DNA of 52,426 nt from a bacterium BMS3Bbin05 (lineage in GTDB: Bacteria > Nitrospirota > Thermodesulfovibrionia > Thermodesulfovibrionales > BMS3Bbin05): contig BDTO01000063.1 in NCBI GenBank assembly GCA_002897855.1, forward strand, positions 1 to 52,426, given 5' to 3'. Of the stretch, positions 19,905 through 31,203 are shown piece after piece (the stretch's first letter is position 1; each line of letters opens with the position of its first letter). Both the position numbers and the translations under genes were made by a program. Under the pieces are notes generated by a model that was given only the letters and a program-made list of their open reading frames with translations, was not told the DNA's origin and did not search any database.

Positions 19905-21132
19905 ATGTCAAAAAAAATGATAGCTTTATTCGCCCTGATGATATTTATGGCAGGGCTTTCGGTCTTCTCAACAAAAAGCGAGGCGATGCCGAACTTCGCA
20001 AGAAAATACAGTGCAGACTGCACGATGTGTCATACAATTATTCCTCAACTGAACAGGATTGGATATGAATTCAGGATGGCAGGCTACAGGCTTCCCTCTG
20101 AGATCGGCAAAGATGAAAAAACTTTCAAGCTCGGTGATTTTTTTGCCGCAAGGATACAGACACACTATTCATGGAAGAAGCATACCGATGTGAACTCCGC
20201 AAACGATCACACCGACAGCCAGCTTAAATTCAAAGAATTTACGATGTACCCGCTTACAGGTTCGTGGGGGAAATATTTTGGTTCCCTTGCAGAGCTCTCT
20301 GTAGGTATCCCGGAAGAATGGGAGGTAGAAAACGCCTATGTAAGGGGAGTCTATGGAAATGAAAACGGATGGTTTGAAGGCAGGGTCGGCGTCTTTCACG
20401 CATGGGAGGGCTTTGGTGCATCCGACACAGGCCGCTCGGGACCATGAGGCCATTAATTCAGGGTAAAATGGGGAAGGGAGTACCATTTAAGGCATGGCCC
20501 GGGGGTGAGACGGGAGCGGAAGTCGGTTATTATTCTGCAAAGACAGGGACTGCTGTCTCAGCAGTCCTCTGGAACGGAATGAATGCTGCTGGTAATGCAT
20601 CGGGAAAAACACAGGGGGCCAACCCGGATATAATGATAAAGACATCCAGCTCTTTGTTAACCAGTTTATCCGCGATGATTCGGCCGTAAGCATCTATTAC
20701 TATAGGGGTGTAGCTCCATTCCCGGCTTCGGGCGTCCAGACAAGAGACAGCTATCAGAGATTGATAGCTTACGCAAACTTCTGGCCAGTACGTGAAAAGC
20801 TTAACCTTAAGGCAGGTTATGGTTATGGTCATGATTCCTTGAGTGACAATACTGTTGCAGGCGGCGCAAATGTCGGAAACAGCAAAGGCTTCTTTGGTGA
20901 GGCTGATTATATTGTAATTCCGGCTAAAATGGAAGTGGGCGCACGCTACGATTATCTCGACCCATCAAGCAAGGTTAGCCATAACAACCAGAAGGCATAT
21001 ACATTTTCCGTCAATGCCCCGATTATGCACGGAATGCAATTCATCGGAGATTATCAGCATAAAACTTCAGAACAGCCAACAGGCAAAAATAAGGATGACA
21101 CTCTTGAAGCAAGAGTAATCTTTATATGGTAA
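19905..21132 (+). pseudogene. Single-heme cytochrome plus outer-membrane barrel protein, two frameshifts
   Basis: Start ATG at 19905 has GGAGG six bases upstream. A signal peptide (MSKKMIALFALMIFMAGLSV...) precedes one heme motif, CTMCH, near mature residue 15, in a setting (PQLNRIGYEFRMAGYRLP) known from hypothetical heme-binding porin-like proteins. The rest is beta-rich (FGEADYIVIPAKMEVGARYD; TLEARVIFIW ends in an aromatic residue as barrels do). Three frames are needed: breaks near 20435-20445 (CGGGACC) and near 20628-20640 (GGATATAATGATAAA), each repaired by adding one base. An outer-membrane redox or pore role is inferred. As written, the protein would stop after about 180 residues. Confidence 0.75.
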
Positions 21133-21192
21133 GCTAACGATTCTGTGCCGGGGTCCCATTCCACAGGGATCTCGGCTATTCTATATTATTTA

Positions 21193-21333
21193 GAGTCTGT
21201 GTATAAATTGCCGTTTTTTATTTTTGTCATGCCCGAAGTCTGTAATCGGGCATCCGGAACTTATTGAAAAGAATAGATTCCCCGACTAAGTCGGGAAATG
21301 ACAGATAGAGAGACTGACTTTATACACAGACTC
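21193..21333. repeat. MITE-like element, copy 2
   Basis: Perfect 15-bp ends GAGTCTGTGTATAAA and TTTATACACAGACTC. Flanks are TATTTA on the left and TAAATA on the right, so only the TA/TA pattern is shared and no clean duplication remains. Interior hairpins match copy 1. It makes up most of the 385-bp gap before the tRNA cluster, where nothing else is visible. Confidence 0.85.
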
Positions 21334-21517
21334 TAAATAAAGGCAAACAAATGGATTTGCATAATGCAACCTTGTTGGTATCCAAATAAAATACTCGTGT
21401 ACACCGAGAAATTGACCCTGAAATCCTTTCAATGTTCCTATCACATTTTCCATATCGGTATTTGGAGTAATGTTTAAAATTTGACTTTTGCAATATATAT
21501 TTCTTATTTTAGTAATT

Positions 21518-22310: not shown

Positions 22311-22456
22311 TCTTTAAAATTATTCTACCAAATACAATCCATAAATGCAGAAAAGTAATCTCTGAGCGGCTTGCCCTTCGCTTTTGCTCAGGGCGTACGT
22401 CATTTTATCCGCCTTTGGCGGACACCGGGAAAAATATTATTTTTAAATTCTAAGTA

Positions 22457-22597
22457 GTGTCTGTGTATAAATTGCTGTTTTTTATTTTTGTCATGCCCGA
22501 AGTCTGTAATCCGGCATTCGGAACTTATTGAAAAGAATAGATTCCCCGACTAAGTCGGGAAATGACAGATAGAGAGACTTACTTTATACACAGACTC
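22457..22597. repeat. MITE-like element, copy 3
   Basis: Ends are GTGTCTGTGTATAAA and TTTATACACAGACTC, with an exact 6-bp duplication TAAGTA on both sides (22451-22456 and 22598-22603). It sits in the 406-bp gap between tRNA-Lys and rubrerythrin. The rest of the gap has only a small TCCGCCTTTGGCGGA palindrome near 22410. Confidence 0.88.
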
Positions 22598-22716
22598 TAA
22601 GTAGTATTGAAGGGCAATCTTCGGCGTCGAAAAATTTCTACCGGCAATTATCCTTTCCTTTCTGTTTCTGACATAATGGCTGTTATTGCCCTTCTGAGGT
22701 TTCCACCAGCTTGCTA

Positions 22717-23295
22717 TTAGTAATTCTCACACAGCAGTTCATAATATGCCTGTGGATGTGCACAGGCCGGACACTTGTCAGGTGCTTCTTGTCCCTCATG
22801 GACATATCCACAATTGCGGCATTTCCACTTAACCACAGTATCTTTCTTGAACACCTTTCCCTCTTTTATATTCTTAAGTAGTTTTCTGTATCGTATCTCA
22901 TGCTGTTCTTCGACTTCAGCAATTTCCTTAAATACATCGGCTATCTCTTCAAACCCTTCTTCCCGTGCTGTTTCTTCCGCCTCTTTGTAAAGCTTGGTCC
23001 ACTCAAGGTTTTCCCCGGCTGCTGCGGCCTCAAGATTCTCTGCAGTATCATTTATCATTCCTGCCGGATAACTGGCAGTGATCTCCAAATCCTCACCTTC
23101 TAAGAACATGAAAAACCTCTTGGCGTGCTCTTTTTCATTATCTGCGGTCTCTAAGAAAATTGCTGCTATCTGTTCTAATCCGGCTTTTCTTGCAACAGAA
23201 GAAAAATAAGTGTAACGATTTCTTGCCTGTGACTCTCCGGCAAAACTTGCCAGCAGGTTTTTTTCTGTCTTTGTTCCTTTAACTGATTTCCCCAT
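22717..23295 (-). CDS. Rubrerythrin
   Basis: This 192-residue peroxide-reducing di-iron protein acts in the cytoplasm of anaerobes. The ferritin-like domain (residues 1-145) carries ligand motifs FAGESQARNRY, ETADNEKEHAKRF and EEQHEIRYRKLL. A C-terminal rubredoxin-like domain (about 155-192) has CRNCG and CPAC for one iron. SD GGAGG lies nine bases before the ATG. It is clustered with katG, a PerR-like regulator and a broken small cytochrome, giving a peroxide-defence locus. Confidence 0.97.
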   Translation of the reverse strand: MGKSVKGTKTEKNLLASFAGESQARNRYTYFSSVARKAGLEQIAAIFLETADNEKEHAKRFFMFLEGEDLEITASYPAGMINDTAENLEAAAAGENLEWTKLYKEAEETAREEGFEEIADVFKEIAEVEEQHEIRYRKLLKNIKEGKVFKKDTVVKWKCRNCGYVHEGQEAPDKCPACAHPQAYYELLCENY

Positions 23296-23352
23296 TTGTC
23301 ATAACCTCCTTTTTAGTTCTTTATCTAATAAATTGATAAAAATATTATACTC

Positions 23353-23651
23353 TTACTTCCCGTATTCTTCAGCAAGATAATCTATGATTATCTTTGCTTC
23401 TTCATCAGTTATGGGACAGCCGTTCTTATCCTTCATTCTCATCACAGTTGCGTCCCATCCCTTTTTTTGATTTTTTCTTTGTTTTGGTCTGTCAATAGAG
23501 TGACAGATACTCATTTGCTTTCAAACAGCTGTTGTGAATCTGTTATCTCTTTATCTTCGGCTAAAGCGGTATACCATGCCCCGGATAATACGATCGCGCT
23601 GCATATAAGAACTGCAATAATGGTTTTTTTCATGAGTTTCTCTTTCCCCAT
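23353..23651 (-). pseudogene. Small c-type cytochrome broken at the heme codon
   Basis: From ATG 23651 (or 23633) a signal peptide (MKKTIIAVLICSAIVLSGAW) leads to LFESK, and the frame then hits TGA. In the next frame the sequence continues SICH, then KGWDATVMRMKDKNGCPIT and IIIDYLAEEYGK, a typical small mono-heme cytochrome c end. One missing base changes the expected TGC-AGT (first heme Cys) to TGAGT, so the heme motif CSICH is lost. It lies between katG and rubrerythrin and could have carried electrons in peroxide reduction. The frames are clear; the intact protein is reconstructed. Confidence 0.8.
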
Positions 23652-23756
23652 GTCTTTTAAACGGTTATTTGTTAACTCAGTTAATGTCTACTTTGCAGTT
23701 GCCCTGGCCCTTTCCTCCTGAGACATGCCGGCAAGCCTTTCTACTATCTTTTACGT

Positions 23757-26105
<2,349 letters not shown>

Positions 26106-26166
26106 TTACAATATAGTAGTTAATACTATTTAAAATCAAAAAAATATTATTACCACTGCTTAACTT

Positions 26167-26601
26167 TCAACGGCATTTACTACAAACACCTTCTATGCAT
26201 ACCCTCTTTCTTAATACAGTGAATTTGTTCTTGATTTCATCCGGAATTTCCATGCTGTCATAATCTTTATTATGAAAGTCTATTATCCTGTTACATTTAA
26301 TACATCTTAAATGGTGATGGCTTTCAGTATCAGAATCAAAACGCTTGGGTCCGCCACAACCTTCAACGACATTGACCAGACCAATCTTTGCAAAAGTCAG
26401 GACTGTTCTATTGACAGTGTCAAAGGATATGTTAGGAAAGACCTTCCTTGCCTTCCTGAAAATGGCGTCCGCTGAAGGGTGATCCTTTGACTTATGTAAT
26501 TCTTTATATATAACAGTGCGTTGTGGTGTTATTCTGAGATTATGTTCTTTGCATTTATCCCGAAATAAATTCATTGATACATTATTGTCTTTTATTGCCA
26601 T
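26167..26601 (-). CDS. Fur-family peroxide regulator (PerR-like)
   Basis: This 144-residue metal-dependent repressor has a winged-helix N-domain (RITPQRTVIYKEL; PSADAIFRKARKVFPNISFD) and a dimerisation domain with HHHLRCIKC and VCSKC, the four zinc Cys. At the position that tells PerR (Asp) from Fur (Glu) the sequence reads IIDF, with Asp. It neighbours katG and rubrerythrin. The promoter at 26607-26635 leaves almost no 5' leader, and no SD precedes the ATG, so the transcript may be leaderless. Other Fur-family roles remain possible. Confidence 0.88.
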   Translation of the reverse strand: MAIKDNNVSMNLFRDKCKEHNLRITPQRTVIYKELHKSKDHPSADAIFRKARKVFPNISFDTVNRTVLTFAKIGLVNVVEGCGGPKRFDSDTESHHHLRCIKCNRIIDFHNKDYDSMEIPDEIKNKFTVLRKRVCIEGVCSKCR

Positions 26602-27940: not shown

Positions 27941-27967
27941 TTGACTTTTTTTTAGTTTTTATATAAT
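27941..27967 (+). promoter_or_regulatory. Candidate promoter of the decaheme operon
   Basis: TTGACT (27941-27946) and TATAAT (27962-27967), 15 bases apart, which is short but close to consensus in both boxes. The gene start is 39 bases downstream. Confidence 0.45.
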
Positions 27968-28005
27968 CTGTAATGGGAAAGATTTTTGATCCGGAGGATA
28001 ACGAA

Positions 28006-29004
28006 ATGACTATCATTAAGAGTACCCTTGGCCTCATAGGTGCCCTTATAATAATCGTGGCGGGCTGTGAATCCCTCAAATCATCCAAACCCATCCTGCC
28101 CATGAAAGAATATGAAAAGATGCTGATCGGCAGGCTCGACGCCGACTATATCGGCACCCGGAACTGCCTCTCTGCATGCCACTATCATGACAAGATAAGG
28201 AGGGATTTTGAGGCAAGCACAATGGGCGCTCAGCTTTCAAAAAAATCCGGCATGCCCATAGTAGATTGTGAATCATGCCATGGGCCGGGCAGCCTCGCCG
28301 TAAAAGGCATAACACCTGAAAGGGTAAAGAGAGATGCGAGTGAAGGCAAACAAACTGCCTGCAATTACAGGACTCTTATCAATATAAAAAACCTTCCTCC
28401 GCAGGCAAAATCCCTCATATGCCTGAACTGCCACACAGCAAATGCAACTTTCAGCCTTCATAACTGGAACGCCAGCGAACATGCAATAAACGACGTAACA
28501 TGCATAGATTGTCACAATGTCCACGCCGGGCCGGACCTGATAGTGAGGCCGCGGGACACATTCAGGATGTGCATCAAATGTCACAAGGACGTGGAAGCCC
28601 AATATTCACTTCCAAGTCACCATCCCATTCACGAAAAACGGGTTTTCTGCACAGACTGCCATGACCCGATGGGCTCAACCAATGAAAATATGTTAAGAGG
28701 AGATTCGGTCAAGGCTACATGCACCAGGTGCCATGCAGAAAAAGAAGGCCCGTTCATTTACGAACACGCCGAAAACACAGAAGACTGCACAACCTGCCAC
28801 AATGCCCACGGGTCCATAAACAATAACCTCCTCAAGGTCCAATTGCCATTTTTATGTTTGCAGTGTCACCCGGGGCATGTAATAAGCAGCAGTTCATCTG
28901 TGGATGACAAGAGGTTATCCTATACCCGCTGTACCGACTGTCATTCACAAATCCATGGTACGGATATCCCGGGCGCCGATGGTACCGGCACGTTTACCCA
29001 GTAA
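28006..29004 (+). CDS. DmsE/MtrA-type decaheme c-type cytochrome, lipoprotein signal
   Basis: About 332 residues with ten CxxCH heme sites: CLSACH (the first site, one residue longer), CESCH, CLNCH, CIDCH, CIKCH, CTDCH, CTRCH, CTTCH, CLQCH and CTDCH. It ends in the CHSQIHG pattern of DmsE. Start ATG 28006 has GGAGG seven bases upstream; an earlier ATG at 27973 lacks one. The N-terminus ends in IIIVAGC, a lipobox, so the protein is probably membrane-anchored. MtrA itself is soluble. With the barrel gene two bases downstream it would form an electron conduit across the outer membrane. Confidence 0.92.
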   Translation: MTIIKSTLGLIGALIIIVAGCESLKSSKPILPMKEYEKMLIGRLDADYIGTRNCLSACHYHDKIRRDFEASTMGAQLSKKSGMPIVDCESCHGPGSLAVKGITPERVKRDASEGKQTACNYRTLINIKNLPPQAKSLICLNCHTANATFSLHNWNASEHAINDVTCIDCHNVHAGPDLIVRPRDTFRMCIKCHKDVEAQYSLPSHHPIHEKRVFCTDCHDPMGSTNENMLRGDSVKATCTRCHAEKEGPFIYEHAENTEDCTTCHNAHGSINNNLLKVQLPFLCLQCHPGHVISSSSSVDDKRLSYTRCTDCHSQIHGTDIPGADGTGTFTQ

Positions 29005-29006
29005 GT

Positions 29007-31034
29007 ATGAAGAGTCCATCAATAAAAAAATATTCATTCATACTCATCTTTATAATTTTTTTAACGGCAAATATTACAAGTGCGCAGGACTCGGGTATAA
29101 ATTTTGAACAGATATATTCATTCCCGGAAATAGCGCCTGCAACTTCTTGTACTGCGGGATACAGGTTCGCAGGTTATGACAATTCAAAAAAGGCCGGAGA
29201 ATATGAATATCTCCACAATTCCATCTCCGCAGGCGGTGAAATAAGGCTGTTCCCATTCCCCCACAGGATCCATCTCAATATCAATGTCAAAAACAGGAAG
29301 GACTACTTCGGCGACCTCAGTTACGCATACAGAGATATTGTCCTCTTCAGGGGAATCAATCGTACATTGTTTCATAATCTGGATAACATCTATTACGGAC
29401 GGTCACCGGCTGTATCATTCACAGAGCCGACGGATGCAGGGGAGGAATACGGAGTCAGTGTGGGAATAAGCAATGTCTTCGTCAGGTTCAAGACTCCTCA
29501 TTTTCCTTTTCATGTATACGCAAACGGCAGCCTGATAAAAAAGGATGGTTTGGCGCAGCAGAGATTTCTCGGTGGTGCGGGGTACTTTACGACTACAGTC
29601 CCCTTTCCTTTTGCCAACGGAAGAGTCAGGACCACACAGAAAAGGGACATTGACTGGAAAACGACCGAGTACACTATAGGGGCCAACGGTCATCTCAGAT
29701 GGATTGAGGCGGATATCTCCCATACTGAAAAGAGGTTCGACAGCAGTGGTGACAAGGTTATGTATTACACCTACCTTCCGGCAGGCGCTCCCACAGCCGG
29801 GTCGGTACGACAGGGAGGCACTTACCCTCACAACCTTAATCCGAACCTGAGGGGTTCAACGAACACCCTCAAGCTGCACTCATCTTATACAGGTAAAATA
29901 GTTGCATCGGCAACATTCCTTAAAAAAGACAGGGAGAACGAGTATAGCCATGCAAAGGCCGGCTACTTCTCGGGGGCCGGCAATATAACATGGATGCCCC
30001 TCACAAAGCTAATATTCTTTATCAAATACAAACATACCGACAGAAACATCGACAATCCTGTATCTGTCACAATTGCCGATCTGAACAATGCAGCCAATAC
30101 TTACAGTGATACATCTGTAAGACCTTCCATTTCTTCACACTCAGACATGGTTTCATTGACCGGGAGGTACAGGCCGGTTTCGAGACTGACTCTCAGGGCC
30201 AATTATACTTTCAGGGACCACAGAAGATCGGATAATAAGGCCTGGGGGCTGCCTCACTCGACGCAGAAGAACATATTCTCCATATCCGGGGATTCAAGAA
30301 TTATGGCAGGACTTGCTCTCAAGGCCGGATATACCCACAAATCAATCAATGACCCTGCTTATAATGTGCAGCCCGACAGGTCTGATGAAGGCAGGCTCAG
30401 TATCTCCTGGCTTCCCGTGTCAAGGATCAGTGCCATTCTGAGCTATGGCATCGCAATAGAGAAGAGAGATCATATGCGTTTTGCAGAAGGTCCGGGCGTT
30501 ATCATAGAATCCCCCGGGAACAGGAAAGTCAGGCGTGATAATCTGCTCGGCAATGTGTCATTCCTGATAATCAAAGAGCTTTCATTAACAACAAGCTATG
30601 CTTACATGCACCACAAGATCAAAGAAGACGTGTTTTATCACAACACTATCCCGCCATTTACAGACGCCAACCGCAAGTTCGACCGGGGTGTTCCTTACAG
30701 TGATACGGCGAACAGCTATGCAGTAAATATCAGGTACAGGGTGAACGATAAGTTAAACCTGAACGGTGGTGTAACACATACAAGAAGCAGGGCGCATTTT
30801 AATGTAGCCGCCGCAGATCTCACCCAACCGGTATCGGTCGCCTCCTTTTCGAGCCTGGAAACAAGAGAAACCAGTTATAGCATATCCGGCAGTTATACTG
30901 TAATCCACGGATTTCTTGTGGGGGCTGAATATAGATACAGCGACTTTAATGACGTAAGGGACGACCCCTATGACGATGTAAAAGATAGTAAAGTCCATAT
31001 CATCTGGCTAACCCTCTCTAAGAAATGGGGATAG
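29007..31034 (+). CDS. MtrB/PioB-type outer-membrane barrel
   Basis: The 675-residue protein starts with a signal peptide (FILIFIIFLTANITSAQDSG). The rest is alternating beta strands over its whole length (for example NVFVRFKTPHFPFHVYANGS; LTLRANYTFRDHR; YSISGSYTVIHGFLVGAEYR) and ends LTLSKKWG, as long barrels do. MtrB/PioB barrels sheath a decaheme cytochrome and let electrons cross the outer membrane. The pairing with the preceding decaheme gene (2-base gap) is the standard order. There is no MtrC/OmcA-like outer cytochrome next to it. Confidence 0.85.
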   Translation: MKSPSIKKYSFILIFIIFLTANITSAQDSGINFEQIYSFPEIAPATSCTAGYRFAGYDNSKKAGEYEYLHNSISAGGEIRLFPFPHRIHLNINVKNRKDYFGDLSYAYRDIVLFRGINRTLFHNLDNIYYGRSPAVSFTEPTDAGEEYGVSVGISNVFVRFKTPHFPFHVYANGSLIKKDGLAQQRFLGGAGYFTTTVPFPFANGRVRTTQKRDIDWKTTEYTIGANGHLRWIEADISHTEKRFDSSGDKVMYYTYLPAGAPTAGSVRQGGTYPHNLNPNLRGSTNTLKLHSSYTGKIVASATFLKKDRENEYSHAKAGYFSGAGNITWMPLTKLIFFIKYKHTDRNIDNPVSVTIADLNNAANTYSDTSVRPSISSHSDMVSLTGRYRPVSRLTLRANYTFRDHRRSDNKAWGLPHSTQKNIFSISGDSRIMAGLALKAGYTHKSINDPAYNVQPDRSDEGRLSISWLPVSRISAILSYGIAIEKRDHMRFAEGPGVIIESPGNRKVRRDNLLGNVSFLIIKELSLTTSYAYMHHKIKEDVFYHNTIPPFTDANRKFDRGVPYSDTANSYAVNIRYRVNDKLNLNGGVTHTRSRAHFNVAAADLTQPVSVASFSSLETRETSYSISGSYTVIHGFLVGAEYRYSDFNDVRDDPYDDVKDSKVHIIWLTLSKKWG

Positions 31035-31056
31035 GATAATAGCACAACATCTCTGA

Positions 31057-31203
31057 TACTCGGAAACAAAAACAGGCGACCTTGTAAATATATCTAACGG
31101 CATGAACACCGTTATCAACTCTCTCAAGGAAGAAACCGGGAATCTTCTGCTTGAATTAAGAAAGTTCGAGGTTCAGGCGGGCGCTTTTTTACAACAGACT
31201 TAA
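31057..31203 (+). pseudogene. Possible 3' remnant of a signalling protein gene
   Basis: A frame open from 31057 to TAA 31203 reads TGDLVNISNGMNTVINSLKE then LLLELRKFEVQAG. The helical pattern and LRKFEV ending recall the C-terminal tails of chemotaxis receptors. There is no start codon context or upstream domain. Weak. Confidence 0.25.

Follow-up and report, generated by a model that had tools for sequence, protein, structure and literature searches.

The Porin-Cytochrome Gene Pair

The window, the whole stretch of DNA that was analyzed (52,426 nucleotides of the Nitrospirota bacterium BMS3Bbin05), carries two adjacent genes on the forward strand. The first encodes a predicted decaheme c-type cytochrome lipoprotein of the MtrA/DmsE/OmcK kind (28006–29004), and the second a predicted 26-strand outer-membrane β-barrel resembling the MtrB sheath (29007–31034).

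The likely start of the cytochrome gene is the ATG at 28006, with a GGAGG sequence at 27993–27997; position 27973 only marks the start of the longest open reading frame. The gene ends with a TAA codon (29002–29004), yielding a product of 332 amino acids. By reading the sequence, weak promoter-like hexamers (TTGACT and TATAAT, forward strand) were recognized upstream at 27941–27967; their 15-nt spacer lies outside the 16–18 nt filter of the promoter scan, in which these hexamers are not listed. Further upstream (22717–26601), genes for rubrerythrin, a catalase-peroxidase and a Fur/PerR-type regulator read as a peroxide-stress block. Two 149-bp copies that are 96% identical (21191–21339 and 22455–22603) lie on either side of a stretch rich in tRNA genes; with what seem to be inverted AGAGTCTGTGTATAAA-like ends, they resemble a small mobile repeat.

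The cytochrome scores above the cut-off of the DmsE/MtrA decaheme family TIGR03508 (244.2 bits against 192.2, E-value 1.5e-72), and is the only full-length match to this model in its own genome. It does not reach the cut-off of the GSU2203/OmcK family NF041028 (228.5 bits against 325, E-value 1.1e-67). Its heme motifs comprise nine CXXCH and a single CX3CH (CLSACH, 28165–28182, forward strand). Alignment by phmmer with the MtrA of the solved structure (6r2q_A, E-value 6e-42) places the CX3CH on heme 1 (CLMCH in MtrA) and pairs the nine other motifs one to one. The ten hemes claimed in the preliminary description are found if the CX3CH, where heme attachment is predicted, is counted as a site; by CXXCH alone there are nine. 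As the first site is non-canonical, standard CXXCH counts give nine hemes for the branch to which this protein belongs. The N-terminus is a signal peptide with IVAGC at its end, and the lipobox cysteine (VAG-C, codon 28066–28068, forward strand) is invariant in the homolog alignment; the lipoprotein assignment is based on this motif and its conservation. A further cysteine outside the heme motifs (residue 118 of the alignment, codon 28360–28362) is invariant in 25 of 25 aligned cytochromes. The AlphaFold2 model of the cytochrome was unusable (pLDDT 43).

The barrel open reading frame begins 2 nt past the cytochrome stop codon. Its product passes the gathering cut-off of Pfam MtrB_PioB (33.6 bits against 23), but reaches neither that of TIGR03509 (30.1 against 240) nor that of NF041027, the GSU2204/OmcL barrel model (106.5 against 350, E-value 1.6e-30). 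In an AlphaFold2 model built with 18 homologs (pLDDT 73, pTM 0.66), 26 strands were counted from the element list, the number reported for MtrB (PMC7198977). The best solved structure in a Foldseek search with this model was MtrB itself (6r2q_B, E-value 5.6e-19, TM 0.68/0.71), with about 12% identity in the structural alignment; the second match was a TonB-type receptor (2e-9, TM 0.35–0.39). The predicted fold supports an MtrB-like barrel, with mixed evidence from the family profiles: the match to MtrB/PioB profiles on which the preliminary description had made its reading depend exists for Pfam and is backed by the fold, but fails for TIGR03509. The preliminary claim of a porin-cytochrome pair of the MtrAB type with the barrel two bases downstream is borne out by the 244 bits of the cytochrome and by MtrB as the top Foldseek match. 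The barrel sequence contains one cysteine and, when read, no CXXCH.

Distribution and Phylogeny of the Cytochrome

Homologs of the cytochrome are present in 40 of 81 genomes of the same order (the genome under study counted), with a close set that is 60–81% identical; identity to the nearest homolog is 79–81% over its length. A scan of a genome collection returned 80 named loci. Nearly all are from Nitrospirota, several of them under the names Thermodesulfovibrio or Thermodesulfovibrionales; a few carry the label of Deltaproteobacteria or Desulfobacterota groups. The lipobox cysteine and the CX3CH first heme motif are both present in 87 of 87 distinct homologous loci (nearly all Nitrospirota), so the cysteine whose conservation had been named as decisive is kept throughout. 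All 83 loci with enough room have a same-strand barrel gene downstream of the cytochrome gene.

More distant homologs in the same order (about 39% identical) carry ten CXXCH motifs and have barrels of their own; most begin with an ordinary signal peptide that lacks a lipobox. Lipid-anchored and soluble MtrA-type pairs coexist within the order. In one relative, soluble-type MtrA-like/barrel pairs stand in tandem (L181, 4046–8283). Proteins over the GSU2203 (OmcK) cut-off were found in 47 of 395 genomes of the phylum of the Desulfobacterota homologs; those that were read combine a lipobox with a canonical heme-1 motif (CXXCH), and their partner barrels, where read, carry a CXXCH as well.

In a maximum-likelihood tree, the window-type cytochromes form one clade (support 100/99), apart from the soluble MtrA-type and OmcK-type proteins; the latter two were told apart automatically by motif, with a few rows misplaced (L178, L179, L201). 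One branch (99/95) splits the window clade plus the OmcK type from the soluble type. A single origin of the lipid anchor would be compatible with this tree, and no more than compatible, since the root is arbitrary. The CX3CH first heme motif is the signature of the window clade. The anchor itself is not unique to the clade because OmcK also has it, and we rejected the idea that it constitutes the novelty. Anchoring had earlier been called unusual, a point to be corrected in view of the lipobox of the GSU2203/OmcK family. The clade defines a branch of MtrA that is lipid-anchored and departs from the canonical motif at its first heme site; a 2022 survey of Mtr conduits makes no mention of Nitrospirota (PMC8805035).

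Putative Sensor Genes Adjacent to the Pair in Relatives

Among the 66 loci whose downstream sequence extends for 3.6 kb or more, 60 encode a periplasmic protein of the ABC_sub_bind family (PF04392) after the barrel. Chemoreceptor or kinase genes are also present at 52 of the 63 loci with at least 5.5 kb downstream: 35 have a methyl-accepting chemotaxis protein, 17 a PhnD-like binding protein together with a HAMP histidine kinase, and the remaining 11 neither. In the gene lists that were read, the receptor or kinase gene lies directly 3′ of the binding-protein gene, and genes for an ABC permease or ATPase do not intervene, an arrangement that would suit a sensor role. Near the 59 loci of the other two decaheme kinds the binding protein was not found, and receptor genes were near three. 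In addition, homologs of a multiheme lipoprotein are encoded upstream or in the vicinity at 17 loci, some of them over the cut-off of the MtrC/MtrF domain II/IV model.

Judged from gene order alone, the cell would probably use the binding protein and the chemoreceptor or kinase to adjust its movement or gene expression to the electron partner outside. It is conceivable, and we put it forward tentatively, that conduit, periplasmic ligand-binding protein and chemoreceptor or histidine kinase were inherited together as a single operon. Such a conduit would carry its own sensor, by which cells are steered, or genes regulated, toward the external electron partner; the arrangement would be widespread in Nitrospirota and would have been stripped secondarily from this genome. 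Within the reach of our search, outside which most subscription papers lie, no published description of an operon of conduit, binding protein and receptor or kinase was found. Little is known about how cells link outer-membrane conduits to the finding or sensing of acceptors outside. The joint occurrence of conduit, binding protein and chemoreceptor or kinase across two phyla offers a concrete gene set, to which the genome studied here adds a natural deletion contrast.

A Probable Deletion Scar After the Barrel Gene

Directly downstream of the barrel gene, at 31039–31173 (forward strand), lies a remnant of 45 codons that matches the last 45 positions of a profile of conduit-linked chemotaxis receptors (29.3 bits). 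With tblastn over the whole window, it is 47–56% identical to the C-terminus of these receptors (E-values 2e-6 to 2e-5). It has an in-frame stop and reads through beyond the usual receptor end. At a locus of the same genus (L057), cytochrome, barrel, binding protein and receptor genes are followed by aroB, aroK and aroC on the opposite strand. The order in the window is cytochrome, barrel, and then aroB, aroK and aroC, and the remnant sits where L057 keeps its intact sensor genes. The receptor tail between barrel and aroB, together with the order at L057, indicates a deletion of about 3 kb in which the binding-protein gene was lost along with most of the receptor gene. The preliminary description missed both the conserved binding-protein and chemoreceptor/kinase genes and this scar.

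As the genome assembly consists of 89 contigs, the scar may instead be a misassembly join; the in-frame stop and the loss of the native stop favor decay over such a misjoin. A simple relocation of the sensor genes was rejected: the unlinked triad present in this genome belongs to the kinase type, with a binding protein that shares only 31% identity with the receptor-linked one of the same genus, and none of the three chemoreceptors of the genome exceeds about 35% identity to a conduit-linked one. This triad (C57:32770–36607, L168; ABC_sub_bind protein, PhnD-like binding protein and HAMP histidine kinase) is 42–55% identical to conduit-adjacent triads in relatives.

Other Candidate Electron-Transfer Genes in the Genome

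Reading of the heme-rich stretches of the genome revealed NrfH/CymA-like cytochromes with 10–11 hemes (C57:61613–62584 and C59:21068–21913), clusters of cytochrome b561 and multiheme genes on contigs C21 and C57, and cytochromes with 19 to 23 CXXCH motifs (C43:1–3907, L163; C43, L164; C80, L171), one of which has 1302 residues and matches the GSu C4xC/C2xCH domain. They could take part in quinol oxidation or act as carriers in the periplasm or at the surface; for the inner-membrane quinol oxidoreductases whose search had been proposed beforehand, the NrfH/CymA-like proteins and the b561 clusters are the candidates. No surface MtrC-type cytochrome gene is present in the window, and a homolog of the surface cytochrome of one relative was not found in the genome (93% complete). 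The absence of an outer cytochrome, as first described, applies to the window locus, but not to those relatives in which a multiheme lipoprotein, in some cases matching MtrC/MtrF domains, is encoded beside the pair; the genome itself holds many other multiheme cytochromes. Sulfate reduction was considered and rejected, as no DsrA over the cut-off was detected in the genome at this completeness.

A porin gene with one N-terminal CXXCH (MPNFARKYSADCTMCH...) lies 7 kb upstream of the conduit (19905–21132) and recalls monoheme porin-cytochrome fusions such as Cyc2. It is split over three frames by two frameshifts, reflecting a pseudogene or sequence errors, and its pieces gave no Pfam match.

Proposed Function of the Pair

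We consider it likely that the pair forms an outer-membrane electron conduit, with a lipid-tethered decaheme cytochrome running through the 26-strand barrel in the way known from MtrAB and electrons most likely passing outward, and that the sensor genes of its relatives have been discarded here. In the predicted complex the cytochrome would fill the barrel, and the N-terminal lipid would tether its periplasmic end, most likely at the inner leaflet of the outer membrane, because the N-terminus of MtrA is its periplasmic end. Electrons would pass between a quinone-linked periplasmic multiheme pool and the cell surface; export to minerals or partner cells is the most likely direction. Outward flow is the more likely since OmcK and GSU2204 of Geobacter are up-regulated on hematite and magnetite (PMC4070692). 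A conduit role is also in line with the expression of an OmcKL conduit in HotSeep-1 syntrophy (PMC10553843). The conduit is probably respiratory.

Electron uptake in the manner of PioAB and MtoAB, by which Fe(II), a mineral or a partner cell would supply electrons to the periplasm, appears distinctly less probable. As in those systems, the window locus has no surface cytochrome gene, uptake has been proposed for OmcKL homologs in ANME-partner bacteria (HotSeep-1; PMC10553843), and one homolog (L090) is from a genome labelled Mn-Nitrospirae (isolate MnB_6). However, multiheme lipoproteins of a surface type are found next to the pair in relatives belonging to the clade, and OmcK is up-regulated in Geobacter grown with iron oxides (PMC4070692). 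MtrAB and PioAB sequences are not separable by direction (PMC8805035), and none of the tests made favored uptake.

The lipobox shared by OmcK-type proteins and the window clade could also place the lipid in the outer leaflet, with an OmcK-like surface cytochrome docked on the barrel and another cytochrome filling its periplasmic side, since one study counts OmcK among extracellular proteins and another takes it as the extracellular partner of the barrel (PMC10553843). We regard this topology as unlikely, slightly more so than uptake: the ten heme sites of the cytochrome line up in order with those of MtrA from the first to the last, MtrA resides inside the barrel with its N-terminus in the periplasm (PMC7198977), and some relatives already have a separate surface-type lipoprotein. 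That the conduit is a decaying relic, as the scar directly 3′ of the barrel gene and the frameshifted porin-cytochrome gene 7 kb upstream might suggest, is very improbable given that neither gene is disrupted, that the ten heme sites and the conserved residues are all kept, and that the cytochrome is 79–81% identical to its nearest homolog over its length.

Comparison With Known Systems

The window pair shares with MtrAB, PioAB and MtoAB the ten heme sites colinear with MtrA and the 26-strand barrel, for which MtrB is the best structural match. It differs in that the barrel scores far under the TIGR03509 cut-off and in the sensor genes of the relatives within its clade. MtrA-type homologs of the same order are soluble with a CXXCH at heme 1, in contrast to the CX3CH lipoprotein of the window. 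The multiheme lipoprotein that some relatives add, over the cut-off of the MtrC/MtrF domain II/IV model, recalls MtrCAB, from which the window locus differs by having no surface cytochrome.

Also among the nearest known systems is OmcKL of Geobacter and Desulfobacterota (GSU2203 OmcK and GSU2204 OmcL), where a lipoprotein decaheme of the MtrA/DmsE superfamily is likewise followed by a barrel, without an adjacent soluble periplasmic cytochrome, and which is implicated in extracellular electron transfer (PMC4070692, PMC10553843). The window pair is 31–37% identical to OmcKL, remains under both NCBIfam cut-offs and belongs to a separate clade. OmcK-type proteins have the canonical CXXCH at heme 1 in place of CX3CH, and the OmcKL barrels that were read carry a CXXCH that the window barrel does not. 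Near the 48 loci of the lipobox type, no binding protein was found and receptor genes occurred at only 2. The best reading is that the window pair is of the MtrAB/OmcKL-like kind already known and belongs to a branch marked by a signature and an operon of its own.
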